This document shows, piece after piece, positions 29,721 through 41,103 of a stretch of 64,000 nt of DNA. Position 1 is the stretch's first letter; each line of letters opens with the position of its first letter. Both the position numbers and the translations under genes were made by a program. The notes under the pieces were generated by a model. That model did no database searches and was not told the DNA's origin. It saw nothing but the letters and a program-made list of their open reading frames with translations. The DNA comes from Dehalococcoidia bacterium. GTDB taxonomy: Bacteria; Chloroflexota; Dehalococcoidia; SM23-28-2; HRBIN24. Location: positions 1 through 64,000 of the forward strand of contig JAVVHA010000010.1 in NCBI GenBank assembly GCA_032249735.1, given 5' to 3'.

Positions 29721-31904
29721 TCAGGCTCCCCGGGCCGTAGGGCTCAACTCCCTCTTGACGGCCGTAACCCCGCGAACCCCTTCCAGCTTGGCCAGGAGGC
29801 GGATGAGCTGAGAGAGGCCCTGGGTCTCCAGGGTCACGTAGATGGTGATGGTCCCATCATCGTGCTCCTGGGAGCGGATGCCCGTCATGTTCACCCCCTC
29901 CTCGGCCACTAGGGTGGAGATATCGCGCATGAGGCCTACTCGGTCCCAGGCGTCGATGCGCACGGCCACGGGGTAGACGTGGCCCGGGGCACCCCACTCC
30001 ACCTCCACCAGCCGCTCCCGCTCCAGGGCTGGCAGGTTGGGGCAGTCGGTGCGGTGCACCGATACTCCCTCCCCACGAGAGACATATCCCACGATGGGGT
30101 CGCCAGGCATAGGCTGGCAACAACGGGCCAGACGAGTGAGGAGGTCGCCACTGCCCAGCACCCGCACGCCAGCTGCCGAGACCAAGGGCTGATGGCGAGG
30201 GCGATGGGGCGCCTGAGGGGGCGGCTCCAAAAGGTGGGGTATGCGGGTGAGGACCTGGTGAGGGCTTAACTCCCCGTATCCCAGGCGGAAGAAGAGCTCC
30301 TCCACGTCCGTGAGGCCGAAGGCCCGCACAAGCTCTCCCTCTACCTGGGCCAGCTCCAGGCCGAGGCGGGAGAGCTCCTTAAGGAGCATCTCGCGGCCGC
30401 GGGCCACGTTTTCCGCCCGCTCCTGCCGCTTGAACCATTGACGTATCTTCTGGCGGGCGTGGCTGGTATGGACGTAGCCCAGCTCAGGGTTGAGCCAGTC
30501 GCGGGAGGGCCCTTTGGCTGTCTTGCTGACGATGATCTCCACCACGTCGCCGTTCTGGAGCTGGTAATTGAGGGGGACGAGGCGGCCGTTGACCTTGGCC
30601 CCCACGCACCGGTGGCCCAGGTCGGTGTGGATGCGGTAGGCGAAGTCGATGGGGGTGGCACCACGGGGGAGCTCCTTCACCTCCCCCTTGGGGGTGAAGA
30701 CGAAGACCTGGTCTTGGAAGATGTCACTCTTGATGGCCTCCACTAGCTCCTGGGCGCCAGCCATCTCTTGGTGCCACTGCAGGAGCTGGCGCAGCCAGGC
30801 CAGTCGCTCTTGGTATCGGCGGTCCGGTTTCTCCCCCTCCTTGTAGCGCCAGTGGGCGGCCACGCCGTATTCGGCCACCTGGTGCATCTCGTGGGTGCGG
30901 ATCTGCACCTCTAAGGGGCGGCCCCCGGGGCCCATCACAGTGGTGTGCAGGGATTGGTACATGCTCTGCTTGGGCTTGGCGATGTAGTCGTCGAAGGTGC
31001 CCGGCAGGGGGGTGAAGATGCTATGGACGATGCCCAGGGCCCGATAACACTCGGGCACGCTGTCCACCAAGATGCGCACTGCCAGCAAGTCATAGATCTC
31101 GTGGGGGTTGCGCCCCTCAGCGGCGTACCGCTGCATCTTCTGGTAGATGCTGTAGATGTGCTTGGCCCGCCCCTGCACCTGGGCCGAGAGACCGTGGCGG
31201 GAAAGCTCCTCCTGGAGGAGACGGCACACATGGTTGATATAGCGCTGACGGGCCTCCCGCTTGGTGGCCAGCATATCGGCGATGGCCCGGTACTTGTCGG
31301 GCTCCAGGTAGCGGAAGGCCAAGTCCTCCAGCTGCCACTTGAACTGCCAGATGCCCAGGCGGGCAGCCAGAGGGGCGTAGATCTCCAGGGTCTCGCGGGC
31401 GATGCGCACCTGGTCCTCCCGGGGGAGAGCGTACAGGGTGAGCATGTTGTGGAGGCGGTCGGCCAGCTTGATGAGGACCACCCGCAGGTCGCGGGCCATG
31501 GCCAAGAACATCTTGCGCAAGTTTTCGGCCTGCATCCTCTCCCCTGCAGCCCGGTCCTCCAAGGTCTCCCAAGGGATCTGGCCCAGCTTGGTGACCCCTT
31601 CCACTAGGGAGGCCACCCCTTCCCCGAAGAGCTGGCGAAGATCTTGGTTGGGGATGCCACAGTCCTCCTGCACGTCGTGGAGGAGGGCGGCGGCCACTGT
31701 CTCGGCGTCCAGCTGTAGCTCGGCCATGCTATAGGCCGTGTGCAAGGGGTGGGTGATGGCTGGGTCGCCGGAGCGGCGGAATTGGCCTTGGTGGCAGCGG
31801 GAGGCAAACTCCAAGGCCCTCTCCACCAAGGCTACGCCGGTGGAGGGTAGGTATTGGCGTGCCCGCTCAAGGAGCTCCTGAGGGGAGATGTTACGGGCCT
31901 TCAT
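29721..31904 (-). CDS. relA: bifunctional (p)ppGpp synthetase/hydrolase (Rel/SpoT)
   Basis: Stringent-response enzyme of 727 aa. HD hydrolase: CHQGQFRRSGDPAITHP, LLHDVQEDC, KLADRLHNM. Synthetase: GRAKHIYSIYQKM, YDLLAVRILVDS and IQIRTHEMH-like EVQIRTHEMHQVAEYGVAAH. TGS: VFVFTPKGEVKELPRGATPIDFAY split over the domain. A C-terminal zinc-finger region (CCQPMPGDPI) and ACT domain complete the long form. All metal-binding residues of the HD domain seem present, so both activities are expected. It starts 19 bp after an SDR gene on the same strand. Confidence 0.96.
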   Translation of the reverse strand: MKARNISPQELLERARQYLPSTGVALVERALEFASRCHQGQFRRSGDPAITHPLHTAYSMAELQLDAETVAAALLHDVQEDCGIPNQDLRQLFGEGVASLVEGVTKLGQIPWETLEDRAAGERMQAENLRKMFLAMARDLRVVLIKLADRLHNMLTLYALPREDQVRIARETLEIYAPLAARLGIWQFKWQLEDLAFRYLEPDKYRAIADMLATKREARQRYINHVCRLLQEELSRHGLSAQVQGRAKHIYSIYQKMQRYAAEGRNPHEIYDLLAVRILVDSVPECYRALGIVHSIFTPLPGTFDDYIAKPKQSMYQSLHTTVMGPGGRPLEVQIRTHEMHQVAEYGVAAHWRYKEGEKPDRRYQERLAWLRQLLQWHQEMAGAQELVEAIKSDIFQDQVFVFTPKGEVKELPRGATPIDFAYRIHTDLGHRCVGAKVNGRLVPLNYQLQNGDVVEIIVSKTAKGPSRDWLNPELGYVHTSHARQKIRQWFKRQERAENVARGREMLLKELSRLGLELAQVEGELVRAFGLTDVEELFFRLGYGELSPHQVLTRIPHLLEPPPQAPHRPRHQPLVSAAGVRVLGSGDLLTRLARCCQPMPGDPIVGYVSRGEGVSVHRTDCPNLPALERERLVEVEWGAPGHVYPVAVRIDAWDRVGLMRDISTLVAEEGVNMTGIRSQEHDDGTITIYVTLETQGLSQLIRLLAKLEGVRGVTAVKRELSPTARGA

Positions 31905-36061: not shown

Positions 36062-36116
36062 ATTCTCCAGAATGTCACGTGGTGAACTCGACAAATCGTA
36101 AAAAGGAGGGGGCTAC

Positions 36117-38018
36117 GTGGTCAGGTCGGTGGGGTTAGAGGAGCCGTCGTGGGAGCTGGTGCTGAGGCGCAACAGCATCGAGAGGCTGAAGGAGGAGAAG
36201 TTTCCGCTGGACATCATCCACGAGCTGCCGGAGCTCATCGCCCGGGGGTACGAGGCGGTGCCGGAGGAGGACATGGTCCGCCTCTACTGGTGGGGCATTG
36301 CTCACGACAAGCCCAAGGTGGGGACGTTCATGGTGCGCATCAAGGTGGCTGGGGGGCTATTGGCCCCTTGGCAGCTGCGGGCCATCGGCGCCATATCCAT
36401 GCGCTATGGCCGCAACTATGGCGAGCTGACCACCCGCCAGGGGATCCAGCTCCACTGGGTACGCATGGAGAAGTTGCCGGAGGTCCTTGCGGCCATCCAA
36501 GAGGCTGGCCTCACCACTGTGGGGGCGGAGGGGGACACGGTGCGCAACATCACCACCTGCCCTGTGGCCGGCATCAGCCGGGAGGAGCTGTTCGATGTTC
36601 GGCCAACCATCGCTGCGGTGGCCCGCTTCTTCTGGGGCAACCGCGATTACTCCAACCTCCCTCGCAAGCAGAAGTTCACCATCAGCGCCTGCCCCTACCA
36701 GTGCAACGCCCCTGAGATCCACGATGTGGCCCTGGTGGGGGTCATGAAGGAGGGGCGTCCGGGCTTCGCCGTGCGGGTGGGAGGAGGCCTCTCCGCCACC
36801 CCCCGCATCTCCCGCGACCTGGGCGTCTTCGTGCCGGTGGAGGAGGCGGTGGATGTGCTGAGGGCGGTGACGGACGTCTGGCAGCACAACAACCGGTACC
36901 GCCTCAGCCGGGCCAAGGCGCGCATCAAGTTCCTGATGGACGACTACGGCCCGGAGGCTGTGCGGGCCATGGTGGAGGAGCGGCTGGGCCGCCCCCTGGA
37001 GGATGGGGCCGCCCCCCCTCCCATAGGGGAGGGCGACCACATGGGCATCCATCCCCAGCGTCAGGAGGGCCTCTATTACGTAGGGTTCCCTGTCCCCAAT
37101 GGCCGTATGACGGGCAGCCAGATGCAGCAGCTGGCGGACGTGGTGGAAACGGTGGGGGGAGACATCCGCCTCACCCGCGAGCAGAACTTCATCGTCGGCA
37201 ACGTGCCTGAGGACCGCTTGGGATGGCTATTGGAGCAGGTAGCCCGACTGGGCTTCCCCCATGACCGGCACCGCTTGTACGCCAACTCCACCGCCTGCAC
37301 CAGCCATGAGTTCTGCAACTACTCGGTGGCGGAGACCAAGGGGAAGCTGGAGGAGATAGTGCATGCCCTGGAGGAGAGGTTCGGCAGGCGCATCGAAGGG
37401 CTCAAGATCTACATGGACGGGTGCCCCCACGCCTGCGCCCACCATTGGGTGGGGGAGATAGGTCTGCAGGGGACCACCGCCCCCGGCCCGGGCCTTAGCA
37501 AGATCGAGGCCTACGACATCACCCTGCGTGGGGGTCTGGGGCCCAAGGCGGCCATCGGCAGGCCCATCCTCCGCCGCATCCCTCACCATCAGGTCACACA
37601 GGTGTTGGAGAGGCTGGTGGAGGCATGGCTCAGGGAGCGGGAGGCGCGTGGCCAGCCCTACTCCTTCCGCGACTTCTGCGACCATCACACCGATGAGGAG
37701 CTCCAGGCCATCGCCTTGGGCCAGCCTCTCAAGGAGGAGAAGCGGATGGCCATCGTCCGCATCCCTGGCCCCTTGTTGGACGCCACGGGGGGCTTGGACA
37801 CGGTGGAGGTGCCGCCAGGGACGGTGCGGGAGGCCATCGAGGCTGCGGGCCGCCTCTTCCCTCAGCTCAAGGCGCGCGTCCTAACCTCGCAAGGGGAGGT
37901 GGACCCATCGGTGAACCTCTATGTCAACGAGGAAGACATCCGCGCCCTTCAGGGGCTGGACACCCCCCTCCAAGTGGGGGACGAGCTGGTCATCCTCTTG
38001 GCTATGTCCGGTGGCTAA
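36117..38018 (+). CDS. siroheme [4Fe-4S] sulfite reductase fused to a CysO/MoaD-like sulfur carrier
   Basis: Residues 1 to about 540 are a ferredoxin-type nitrite/sulfite reductase with both pseudo-symmetric halves (LTTRQGIQLHWV, SACPYQCNAPE, LTREQNFIVGNV) and the siroheme/cluster cysteines ACTSHEFC (CX5C) and DGCPHAC (CX3C). Context makes sulfite the likely substrate. After residue 543 the same frame enters a ubiquitin-like beta-grasp domain of about 90 aa (VNLYVNEEDIRAL) that ends exactly in LLAMSGG, the di-glycine tail needed for thiocarboxylation, much like CysO of mycobacteria. GTG start with AAGGAGGGGG. An internal ATG at 37746 begins the second domain with its own Shine-Dalgarno. Confidence 0.92.
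   Translation: MVRSVGLEEPSWELVLRRNSIERLKEEKFPLDIIHELPELIARGYEAVPEEDMVRLYWWGIAHDKPKVGTFMVRIKVAGGLLAPWQLRAIGAISMRYGRNYGELTTRQGIQLHWVRMEKLPEVLAAIQEAGLTTVGAEGDTVRNITTCPVAGISREELFDVRPTIAAVARFFWGNRDYSNLPRKQKFTISACPYQCNAPEIHDVALVGVMKEGRPGFAVRVGGGLSATPRISRDLGVFVPVEEAVDVLRAVTDVWQHNNRYRLSRAKARIKFLMDDYGPEAVRAMVEERLGRPLEDGAAPPPIGEGDHMGIHPQRQEGLYYVGFPVPNGRMTGSQMQQLADVVETVGGDIRLTREQNFIVGNVPEDRLGWLLEQVARLGFPHDRHRLYANSTACTSHEFCNYSVAETKGKLEEIVHALEERFGRRIEGLKIYMDGCPHACAHHWVGEIGLQGTTAPGPGLSKIEAYDITLRGGLGPKAAIGRPILRRIPHHQVTQVLERLVEAWLREREARGQPYSFRDFCDHHTDEELQAIALGQPLKEEKRMAIVRIPGPLLDATGGLDTVEVPPGTVREAIEAAGRLFPQLKARVLTSQGEVDPSVNLYVNEEDIRALQGLDTPLQVGDELVILLAMSGG
37746..38018 (+). CDS. possible internally initiated free CysO-like sulfur carrier (90 aa)
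   Basis: In-frame ATG 37746 starts the beta-grasp domain precisely (MAIVRIPGPLL). AAGGAGGAG (37731-37739) lies six bases upstream, better than most Shine-Dalgarno sites in the window. The free protein would end in SGG like CysO, ThiS and MoaD. The operon could thus make both the fusion and a soluble carrier; the repeat of AAGGAGGAG could instead be chance in a Lys-Glu-Glu stretch. Confidence 0.45.
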   Translation: MAIVRIPGPLLDATGGLDTVEVPPGTVREAIEAAGRLFPQLKARVLTSQGEVDPSVNLYVNEEDIRALQGLDTPLQVGDELVILLAMSGG

Positions 38019-38036: not shown

Positions 38037-38825
38037 ATGGCCCAGCGTGTGCTCTTCGACGACCTGGAGATCGGCGAGATCGCCATGGAGCTGGACGACA
38101 AGGAGCCCCAGGAGGTCATCGCTTGGGCCATCGAGACCTTTGGCGATGGGGTGGCGGTGGTCACCGCCCTCCAGGCCGAGGGAACGGTGGTGCTGGACAT
38201 GGCCTATCGCCTCAAGCCTGACATCTGGGTCATCACTGTGGACACGGGCAGGCTCCCCCAGGCCACCTATGAGTTCCTGGACCGGGTGCGGGAGCGGTAT
38301 CACCAGGCCCGCTGGCGCGTCCTCTTCCCCGACCGGCGGGAGGTGGAGGCCATGGTGCGCCGTCATGGGGTGAACCTGTTCTACAAAGCGGTGCCCTTGC
38401 GGCTCCTGTGCTGCCAGATCCGGAAGGTCCGGCCCCTGGTGGAGGCCCTCGGGGAGCTGGACGCCTGGTTCACAGGCCTGCGGCGCGAGCAATGGGCCTC
38501 CCGGGCCGCCATCCGCAAGGTGGAGCTGGATCACGACCATGGGGGCATCGTCAAGGTCAACCCTTTGGCCGACTGGACCAAGGAGGAGGTTTGGGAGTAC
38601 ATCCGCCAGCACAACCTCCCCTACCACCCACTCTACGACCGGGGGTATACCAGCATCGGCTGCGAGCCCTGCACCCGCCCCATTCAGCCAGGGGAGGACG
38701 ACCGGGCCGGCCGTTGGTGGTGGGAGGTGGGGGCCCCCAAAGAGTGCGGCATCCACTGTCCCATCGAGACGGGGGGCTTCGAGCATGAGGCGGAGGCCAT
38801 CCTCAAGGAGGCCCACGGCCTATGA
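38037..38825 (+). CDS. cysH: adenylyl-sulfate (APS) reductase, [4Fe-4S] type
   Basis: Reduces APS to sulfite and AMP with thioredoxin. The cluster motif is complete: LLCCQIRKVRPL and GCEPCTRPIQPGEDDRAGRWWWE, which separates APS-specific from PAPS-specific enzymes. The C-terminal KECGIH holds the catalytic Cys. VVTALQAEG replaces the usual SGG-type PP-loop wording. 262 aa; 18 bp after the sulfite reductase, with GACGAGGAGG before the ATG. Confidence 0.94.
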   Translation: MAQRVLFDDLEIGEIAMELDDKEPQEVIAWAIETFGDGVAVVTALQAEGTVVLDMAYRLKPDIWVITVDTGRLPQATYEFLDRVRERYHQARWRVLFPDRREVEAMVRRHGVNLFYKAVPLRLLCCQIRKVRPLVEALGELDAWFTGLRREQWASRAAIRKVELDHDHGGIVKVNPLADWTKEEVWEYIRQHNLPYHPLYDRGYTSIGCEPCTRPIQPGEDDRAGRWWWEVGAPKECGIHCPIETGGFEHEAEAILKEAHGL

Positions 38826-39283
38826 GCGGGGAACCTCTGGCCCTCACCGCCGAAGAGAGGGAGATCCTGGGGCTGGAGCTGGCCTCCCTGGTTCCTGCCC
38901 TAGAGGGGGAGAGGCGCCAGCTCTACCAAGCCCTCGCCCAAGCGGTGGCGGATGGCCAGGTGCCCTCCTCTTTAGTGCCCCCCTTGGAGGGCCTGCTGGA
39001 CCTGGCCCTGGAGACGGGGCGCGCCCGCCTCCTCTACCGCGCTGAGGGGGAGAGGGTCCTCACCGACCTCTTCCGTCGCACCCCCAAAGGGAGGGAGCTG
39101 GCCCGCCTCCTGGAGGAGGTGAACAAGGCCCTCTCCTCCCTAGAGGGGCGCACCCTCAGGAGGGTGCAGGTGGCCATGCGCACCCTGGGCCACTTCACCA
39201 TCGCCCTGGAGGTGGAGGGAGCGGGGGTGACGCTGGCTGTGCGTCCTCAGGGGGTGACGGTGGAGAGCATCTCGGTAGGCTAG
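38822..39283 (+). CDS. unknown protein in the sulfate operon
   Basis: 153 aa, acidic and mostly helical in its N-terminal two thirds (LTAEEREILGLELASLVP, LARLLEEVNKALSSLEG), then beta-like repeats (VAMRTLGHFTIALEV, VTLAVRPQGVTVESISVG). No cysteines, membrane span or recognised motif. Start ATG overlaps the cysH stop (ATGA), and cysC follows within 18 bp, so it belongs to the operon. Confidence 0.75.
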   Translation: MSGEPLALTAEEREILGLELASLVPALEGERRQLYQALAQAVADGQVPSSLVPPLEGLLDLALETGRARLLYRAEGERVLTDLFRRTPKGRELARLLEEVNKALSSLEGRTLRRVQVAMRTLGHFTIALEVEGAGVTLAVRPQGVTVESISVG

Positions 39284-39301
39284 GTGGAGGGAGGCATCCC
39301 A

Positions 39302-39868
39302 ATGCAGGAACAGGGGTTCGTGGTGTGGCTAACAGGGCTTTCGGGGGCTGGGAAGAGCACCTTGGCCCACGCCCTGGCCCAGGCCCTTGAGGTCATAGGC
39401 TGGCGGGTGGAGGTGCTAGACGGCGACGTGGTGCGCCAGCACTTCAGCAAAGGCCTGGGCTTCAGCCGCGAGGACCGCTTGGAGAACATGAAGCGGGTGG
39501 CCTATGTGGCCCATCTGCTGGCCCGCAACGGGGTGGCCGTCATCGTCGCGCTCATCTCCCCCTACCGTGAGGGGAGGGATTACGCCCGCCAGCTGATAGG
39601 CCGCTTCGTGGAGGTGTACGTGCGCTGCCCCCTGGAGGTCCTCATCGCCCGCGATGTCAAAGGCCTCTATGCCAAGGCCCTGCGGGGGGAGATCCCTCAG
39701 TTCACCGGCATAAGCGACCCTTATGAGGAGCCCCTCTCTCCCGAGGTTGTGGTGGACACCCATAGGGAGACGGTCCAGGAGAGCCTGGCCAAGCTATGGC
39801 AAGCCCTGAGGGAGCGGGGATACGTCGGGGGGCCCCTGCCGGTCCTGACGGAGGAGGTGGCCTCATGA
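39302..39868 (+). CDS. cysC: adenylyl-sulfate (APS) kinase
   Basis: Phosphorylates APS to PAPS. P-loop GLSGAGKST at about residue 13, [24 protein letters not shown], the lid [19 protein letters not shown] and [14 protein letters not shown] are typical. 188 aa from ATG 39302, which has GGAGGGAGG seven bases upstream; an upstream GTG at 39284 is less likely. Its presence beside an APS-specific reductase suggests PAPS is needed for something other than assimilation. Confidence 0.94.
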
Positions 39869-41103
39869 AGGAGATGACATCCCAGGGCAAACCTCCTCCG
39901 GGGAGCGGCCCTGCTGACGATGGGGCCCAGGTGCCCACCACCGTGCCGCCCCATGGCGGGAGGTTGGTGAACCGCGTCCTGCCTCCCGAGCGGGCGCAGG
40001 AGGTGCGGGAGCGGGCCCCCTCTTTACCCCAGGTACGCCTTACCCCTAGGCAGCTCTCGGATCTCCAGATGATCGCCCAGGGGGCCTTCAGCCCTCTGGA
40101 GGGGTTCATGGGGCGCCGTCACTACCTAAGCGTTTTGCGCCACATGCGTCTGGCCGATGGCACCGTCTGGCCTTTGCCGGTGACCCTGGCCGTGGGGGAG
40201 GAGGCGAAGGGCCTGCGGGAGGGGAGGGAGGTAGCCCTCATCTCGCCCGATGGCCAGCTGGCGGGCATCCTGGAGCTGGAGGAGCGCTACTCATACGACA
40301 AGGAGGAGGAGGCGCGCCGCGTCTTCCGCACCGACGACCCCCAACACCCCGGGGTGGCTGCCCTCCTCAGCCAGGGGGACGTGCTCCTGGCGGGAAAGGT
40401 ATGGGCCCTGGAGGTGGATCGCGGCCCTTTCCCCCAGTACCACCGCACCCCCGCTGAGACCCGTGCCGAGTTCGCTAGGCGGGGCTGGCGTACCGTGGTG
40501 GGGTTCCAGACCCGTAATCCCATCCATCGGGCCCATGAGTATATACAGAAGTGCGCCCTGGAGGTGGTGGACGGCCTCCTGATCCACCCCCTGGTGGGCG
40601 AGACCAAGGCCGACGATGTGCCAGCGGCTATACGCCTTCGCTGCTATGAGGCCCTCCTGGAGGGATACTTCCCCCGGGAGAGGGTGGTGTTATCGGTGTT
40701 TCCAGCTTTCATGCGGTATGCCGGGCCGCGGGAGGCTGTGTTCCATGCCATCTGTCGCAAGAACTATGGTTGTACCCACTTTATCGTCGGGCGCGACCAC
40801 GCTGGGGTAGGCCGTTACTACGGCCCCTACGATGCCCAGCATATATTCAGGGAGTTCCGGCCCGAGGAGCTGGGCATCACCCCCCTCTTCTTTGAGAACG
40901 CCTTTTACTGCCGCCGCTGCGGGGCCATGGCCACCGCCAAGACCTGCCCTCACCCTCCCGAGGCGCGGGTGGAGCTCTCGGGGACGCAGGTGAGGGAGAT
41001 GTTGCAGCAGGGCCAGCCCCCTCCCCCCGAGTTCACTCGCCCCGAGGTGGCTCGCATCCTCCTGGAGGCCAGGGGGTTGGCCCCTGGGACGCTTCGGCCT
41101 TAA
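39865..41103 (+). CDS. sat: sulfate adenylyltransferase (ATP sulfurylase)
   Basis: Makes APS from sulfate and ATP. Homo-oligomeric Sat type: [15 protein letters not shown] (nucleotide-binding QXRN and HxxH), [17 protein letters not shown], and a zinc-binding segment [26 protein letters not shown] lies near the end. 412 aa with a proline-rich N-terminal tail of about 45 residues. ATG overlaps the cysC stop (ATGA). It completes sulfate to sulfide in one operon. Confidence 0.95.

Follow-up and report, generated by a model that had tools for sequence, protein, structure and literature searches.

ThiS-like domains at the C-terminus of sulfite reductases were described in two actinobacteria, Nocardioides and Acidothermus, within sulfate-assimilation neighbourhoods (Iyer, Burroughs and Aravind 2006, PMC1779556). 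The JAB, E1 and SirA genes in row 4e of that work describe a class of neighbourhoods and are not a requirement of the fusion (PMC1779556). Experimental follow-up of the fusion was not found in the literature searched. A protein-thiocarboxylate pathway to methionine (HcyS/HcyF/HcyD/MetY) was reportedly described from Wolinella by Krishnamoorthy and Begley in 2011, a work listed among the references of PMC6225789. In Halobacteria, NirA is joined to a rhodanese domain (PMC11237513). The source of the sulfur of CysO-type carriers was stated as unknown in 2011 (PMC3227635).

The window, i.e., the whole stretch of DNA analysed, comprises positions 1 to 64,000 of contig JAVVHA010000010.1, forward strand, to which all coordinates refer. 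It contains a gene of the architecture described in 2006, with the following features.

36104..36109, forward strand: perfect Shine-Dalgarno sequence AGGAGG, 7 nt upstream of the GTG start
36117..38018, forward strand: fused gene, NirA-type sulfite reductase plus CysO-type sulfur carrier, 633 residues (open reading frame, Pfam)
36147..37721, forward strand: siroheme/[4Fe-4S] sulfite reductase part, residues 11-535 (Pfam, structural relatives)
36300..36302, forward strand: residue A62, aligned with Tyr69 of M. tuberculosis NirA (alignment)
36528..36530, forward strand: residue E138, aligned with Cys161 of M. tuberculosis NirA (alignment)
36558..36560, forward strand: further cysteine, C148, in the N-terminal half of the reductase
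36666..36674, forward strand: Lys184-x-Lys186, the sulfite reductase pair at the substrate site (alignment)
36690..36704, forward strand: additional CX3C of the N-terminal reductase half (C192, C196), kept in fused and unfused relatives
37296..37316, forward strand: CX5C of the [4Fe-4S]-siroheme site, C394/C400, CTSHEFC
37422..37436, forward strand: CX3C of the [4Fe-4S]-siroheme site, C436/C440, CPHAC
37722..37754, forward strand: linker of variable sequence, residues 536-546, under less constraint than any other stretch of the fused protein
37732..37748, forward strand: AGGAGG and in-frame ATG (M544) at the exact domain border, where translation of a free carrier might begin internally
37755..38015, forward strand: CysO-type beta-grasp sulfur-carrier domain, residues 547-633 (Pfam, tree, model)
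38010..38015, forward strand: C-terminal Gly-Gly

The frame is open from end to end, without a stop or frameshift between the domains, as an earlier reading made from the sequence only had proposed. The siroheme [4Fe-4S] reductase of that reading was also confirmed: both cluster motifs are present and are invariant in the relatives. The Pfam families NIR_SIR (E 3e-48) and NIR_SIR_ferr (E 3e-39) match the reductase part, each in two copies, as in assimilatory NirA-type sulfite reductases. Residues 547-633 match ThiS (E 1e-9, 39 bits, cut-off 22.5), and the protein ends in Ser-Gly-Gly, in agreement with the ubiquitin-like domain that had been read there; all Pfam matches lie above their cut-offs. 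A frameshift or assembly artefact was ruled out by 13 intact copies in separate genomes; the fusion recurs in L003, an independent assembly with 85% identity, and in 11 further genomes. The earlier reading could not say whether the fusion had been described; it is not novel, as the same architecture was published in 2006 (PMC1779556). What is new is the fusion in Chloroflexota, its single origin, the evidence for selection, the capped tails, the pattern of CysE and the active-site correlate. The protein resembles the halobacterial NirA-rhodanese (PMC11237513) in combining a siroheme reductase with a sulfur-carrying domain, but differs from it in the fold and chemistry of the carrier.

The fused gene is followed by four genes, and together they are read as a sulfate-assimilation operon.

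38037..38825, forward strand: cysH, PAPS/APS reductase
38822..39283, forward strand: conserved family of 153 residues, no assigned name, same operon
39284..39868, forward strand: cysC, adenylylsulfate kinase
39796..41103, forward strand: sat, ATP sulfurylase, longest frame; the true start is probably further downstream

The order of the domains and the setting with PAPS reductase, ATP sulfurylase and APS kinase are as in the fusion of 2006, whereas E1 and JAMM, which belong to the row 4e neighbourhoods, are encoded elsewhere in this genome (PMC1779556). The cysH gene follows the fused gene in 13 of 13 cases, with the 153-residue gene next wherever the contig is long enough, and the same gene order is found in most operons of the tail-less relatives. 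In both Chloroflexota and the actinobacterial phylum, operons with and without the fusion carry the 153-residue family after cysH. Its member in the window had no relative in Pfam, NCBIfam or PDB, and its model (pLDDT 78), a helical N-terminal part followed by a four-strand meander, gave no fold match.

Relatives were searched in 400 Chloroflexota genomes and in 396 genomes from the phylum to which a Nitriliruptoraceae record belongs, the latter with a strict threshold (E 1e-18). The two-domain architecture was found in three of the former, in nine of the latter and in one more Chloroflexota record. This amounts to 13 fused proteins, four from Chloroflexota and nine from the actinobacterial phylum sampled. 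The best plasmid matches were rejected as members, as they stop before the tail and are unfused relatives. In the tree of the reductase part the 13 fused proteins form one clade with support 100/100, and 16 unfused proteins fall outside. In the tree of the carrier domain, which is given moderate weight for its few alignment columns, the 13 tails form one group (96/79), separate from the free CysO that these genomes also encode; the tails lie with CysO-like proteins, well away from MoaD and ThiS proper. Both trees are explained by a single fusion whose two parts were then inherited together, and the single clade in each rules out repeated independent fusions. The fusion was probably moved between the phyla by transfer, and the Nocardioides and Acidothermus proteins of 2006 are likely to belong to the same clade.

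The nearest solved relatives of the tail are 4n6e_B, the CysO serving BexX, and 3dwg_C, the M. tuberculosis CysO of the structure entry for the CysO-CysM complex; the MoaD-related 1v8c of Thermus ranks between them. The earlier assignment as CysO-like could therefore be narrowed to CysO-type. An AlphaFold model of the fused protein, for which only three sequences were usable, is reliable only in the tail and the reductase end (pLDDT mostly about 70-90), with a mean pLDDT of 56 in the reductase part. The tail was modelled as a beta-grasp, the fold expected by the sequence-only reading, and a fold search with the tail model again returned CysO (4n6e_B, TM 0.84; 3dwg_C, TM 0.80, by target length). 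A loss of the terminal Gly-Gly in homologues was not seen: it is kept in all 13 fused proteins and forms the exact C-terminal end in 11. In the other two, which are sisters, it is capped by two residues, as GGAR and GGAV (L074 and L076; genomes G678 and G408). Simple Nei-Gojobori estimates of dN/dS range from 0.08 to 0.30 for the tail, from 0.09 to 0.25 for the reductase and from 0.2 to 1.7 for the linker (16 codons). Purifying selection thus acts on the carrier domain, and these values and the 13 kept Gly-Gly ends show that it has been retained as a protein domain together with the terminal Gly-Gly that E1 chemistry requires.

The reductase part is nearest in sequence to Mycobacterium NirA/SirA (1zj8, the closest solved structure) and to plant nitrite reductases. 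It shares with the M. tuberculosis enzyme (1zj8) the Lys-x-Lys pair and the cluster motifs. Tobacco nitrite reductase has Lys-x-Asn226 at the substrate site, where its N226K mutant 3vlx also aligns. The Lys-x-Lys pair and the cys operon together point to sulfite as the substrate, which makes a nitrite reductase less likely; the enzyme is taken to be an assimilatory and probably ferredoxin-dependent sulfite reductase.

The fused clade differs from M. tuberculosis NirA (1zj8) in having a carrier tail and in lacking the Cys and Tyr of a cross-link. The cluster loop reads CTSHxFC or CTAHxFC in the fused proteins; in the unfused ones it reads CTG or CTS followed by one residue, Pro, one residue and Cys. 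A covalent Cys-Tyr bond beside the siroheme of M. tuberculosis NirA was reportedly found by Schnell et al. in 2005, a paper whose title is given in PMC10949509; the residues are taken here to be Cys161 and Tyr69. The pair, a feature of that enzyme and not of all sulfite reductases, is absent from all 13 fused proteins. The position of Cys161 holds Glu in 13 of 13, and Cys in all unfused relatives with coverage. The position aligned with Tyr69 holds Ala, Cys or Thr in the fused proteins and Tyr (one Phe) in the unfused; A62 is likely to be the equivalent residue, with a gap nearby in the pairwise alignment with 1zj8. Because the fused proteins form one clade, the change from Cys to Glu counts as one historical change and not as 13. 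Either a reshaping of the pocket that went with acquiring the tail or a coincidence on that branch would fit it. Were the siroheme pocket reshaped together with the gain of the tail, through the lost Cys-Tyr pair, the Glu for Cys and the new cluster loop CTSHxFC, reduced sulfur might even be passed unreleased to the adenylated tail, on a protein-bound route from sulfite to thiocarboxylate, which is considered unlikely. Fused and unfused relatives offer matched pairs for asking what the role of the Cys-Tyr cross-link is.

Three further cysteines were observed in the N-terminal half. C148 and the C192/C196 pair are kept wherever relatives have coverage, whether fused or unfused, but solved NirA and tobacco nitrite reductase lack them. 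By the internal symmetry of the reductase, the C192/C196 motif corresponds to the cluster CX3C in the C-terminal half. These cysteines may be a relic or may mark a second metal site.

The partners that the sequence-only reading had looked to, an E1, a CysM and a JAMM peptidase, are all encoded in the genome. The single E1 is fused to a MoaD-like domain, has no rhodanese domain and lies on contig 12; the JAMM (JAB) peptidase lies on contig 15. Both are thus outside the neighbourhood of the fused gene, and no E1 was found in the operon loci of the relatives. The best match of the CysM is M. tuberculosis CysM, with the residue aligned with Arg220 and the C-terminal extension kept. In mycobacterial CysM, Arg220 selects O-phosphoserine. 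The locus with this CysM (L015 5844-11971, contig C12) contains a cluster of genes for threonine synthase, a MoaD-like protein, a glutaredoxin-like protein, CysK, the MoaD-E1, a CysO-like protein and the CysM-like protein, the names of threonine synthase and the glutaredoxin-like protein being assigned by eye. The system is like the mycobacterial CysO-CysM-Mec-MoeZ pathway in its CysO-type carrier, its CysM with the O-phosphoserine-type Arg, its JAMM and its E1; it is unlike it in having the carrier as part of a sulfite reductase, an E1 that lacks rhodanese and an extra free CysO (PMC3227635).

Beyond the Gly-Gly of this free CysO (L015 6829-7194) lie four more residues (LAGG-DVGG); the related proteins of G378 and G400 have EGGR and ACGP. 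These residues would have to be trimmed by JAMM. In G408 and G678, JAMM, E1, CysO and CysM form clusters (L137, L138), and the free CysO ends exactly in Gly-Gly. JAMM beside E1 was rejected as a mark of capped tails, as each of the 21 genomes tested has a JAMM and the free CysO of these two genomes is uncapped; the link is weak and counts as one event, since G408 and G678 are sisters. The use of carrier sulfur in assimilation and the capped Gly-Gly tails that would need JAMM (G678, G408) recall the HcyS/HcyD system of Wolinella, but here the carrier is fused and not free, and the genome has no proper MetY-type enzyme (no convincing match; best 30.6 bits). For the same reason methionine synthesis by an HcyS/MetY route was rejected as the acceptor pathway.

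The preferred reading, which is given an even chance of being right, is that the E1-adenylated tail is loaded with the sulfide made by its own reductase and then delivers the sulfur to a CysM-type enzyme. Sat, CysC and CysH would activate sulfate and reduce it to sulfite, which the reductase part would turn into sulfide. The single E1 of the cell would adenylate the C-terminal glycine of the tail, and sulfide from the same polypeptide, locally concentrated, would displace AMP to form the thiocarboxylate. This would hand its sulfur to the CysM-type O-phosphoserine sulfhydrylase, with JAMM freeing the product or trimming capped tails. We infer the adenylation, the thiocarboxylate, sulfide as its source and CysM as the acceptor. 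Sulfide is able to attack the acyl-adenylate of such carriers, and an E1 without rhodanese fits the use of sulfide rather than of sulfane sulfur. The channelled loading suggested by the sequence-only reading is doubtful in its strict form, with sulfur passing straight from siroheme to tail, since adenylation requires a prior visit of the tail to a separate E1 protein; an effect of proximity and local concentration is the most that the anatomy suggests. A natural fusion of a carrier with the maker of sulfide names a candidate sulfur source for CysO-type carriers.

No proper CysE was found in nine of 13 fused genomes versus three of eight unfused ones, single absences being unsure in these draft genomes; in the nine, the ordinary O-acetylserine route looks absent, which counts for the preferred reading. 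CysE and CysK are present in the genome of the window and in its two nearest relatives, where free sulfide could be used directly, which counts against loading of the tail by its own sulfide. The position of the E1 gene outside the operon also counts against it, as do the free CysO proteins beside the fusion, which mean that the fused tail is not the sole carrier, and the E1 proteins with a rhodanese domain in G088 and five actinobacterial fused genomes, where a sulfane route is possible.

These E1-rhodanese proteins, the rhodaneses encoded elsewhere in the genome of the window and the existence of free CysO in any case are also what speaks for a working carrier loaded by the sulfane route (cysteine desulfurase, rhodanese, E1), with the fusion giving co-expression or co-localisation rather than loading by the reductase's own sulfide. 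This is rather unlikely, as rhodanese matches are missing from the E1 proteins of the window's genome, the two genomes nearest to it, G408 and G678, and as the sulfane route leaves unexplained why the sole fusion partner makes sulfide. In the E1 of G088 (L139 8246-9463, contig C4) the rhodanese-like stretch was observed at the N-terminus, the usual place being C-terminal.

The CysO-CysM complex (3dwg) and the flexible linker at the fusion point would also suit a docking module, one that binds CysM or E1 to have sulfide consumed close to its release and is itself never thiocarboxylated. Such a module would have no need of the terminal Gly-Gly, yet 13 of 13 proteins keep it, and docking is judged quite improbable. 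It is more doubtful still that the carrier acts as a free protein, released by proteolysis or initiated internally at M544, with the fusion as an economy of the operon. The perfect Shine-Dalgarno sequence and ATG at the exact domain border in the window's genome would serve this, but neither of the two closest relatives keeps the M544 start, and another perfect pair in mid-reductase shows that such pairs arise by chance. A ubiquitin-like conjugation (SAMP- or Urm1-like) joining the reductase to other proteins is scarcely credible, even with SAMP1 and CysO close in fold and with E1 and JAMM encoded, as the gene context is purely sulfur assimilation and we know of no precedent for conjugating a 70 kDa enzyme via its own C-terminus.

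Seven ThiS/MoaD domains were found in the genome, with an eighth, marginal match in a RelA/SpoT-like gene (29721-31904) that is presumably a TGS domain. A free MoaD ending exactly in Gly-Gly lies beside a putative aldehyde ferredoxin oxidoreductase, named by eye (L018 4441-7784, contig C11), a pairing that resembles known tungsten-cofactor loci.
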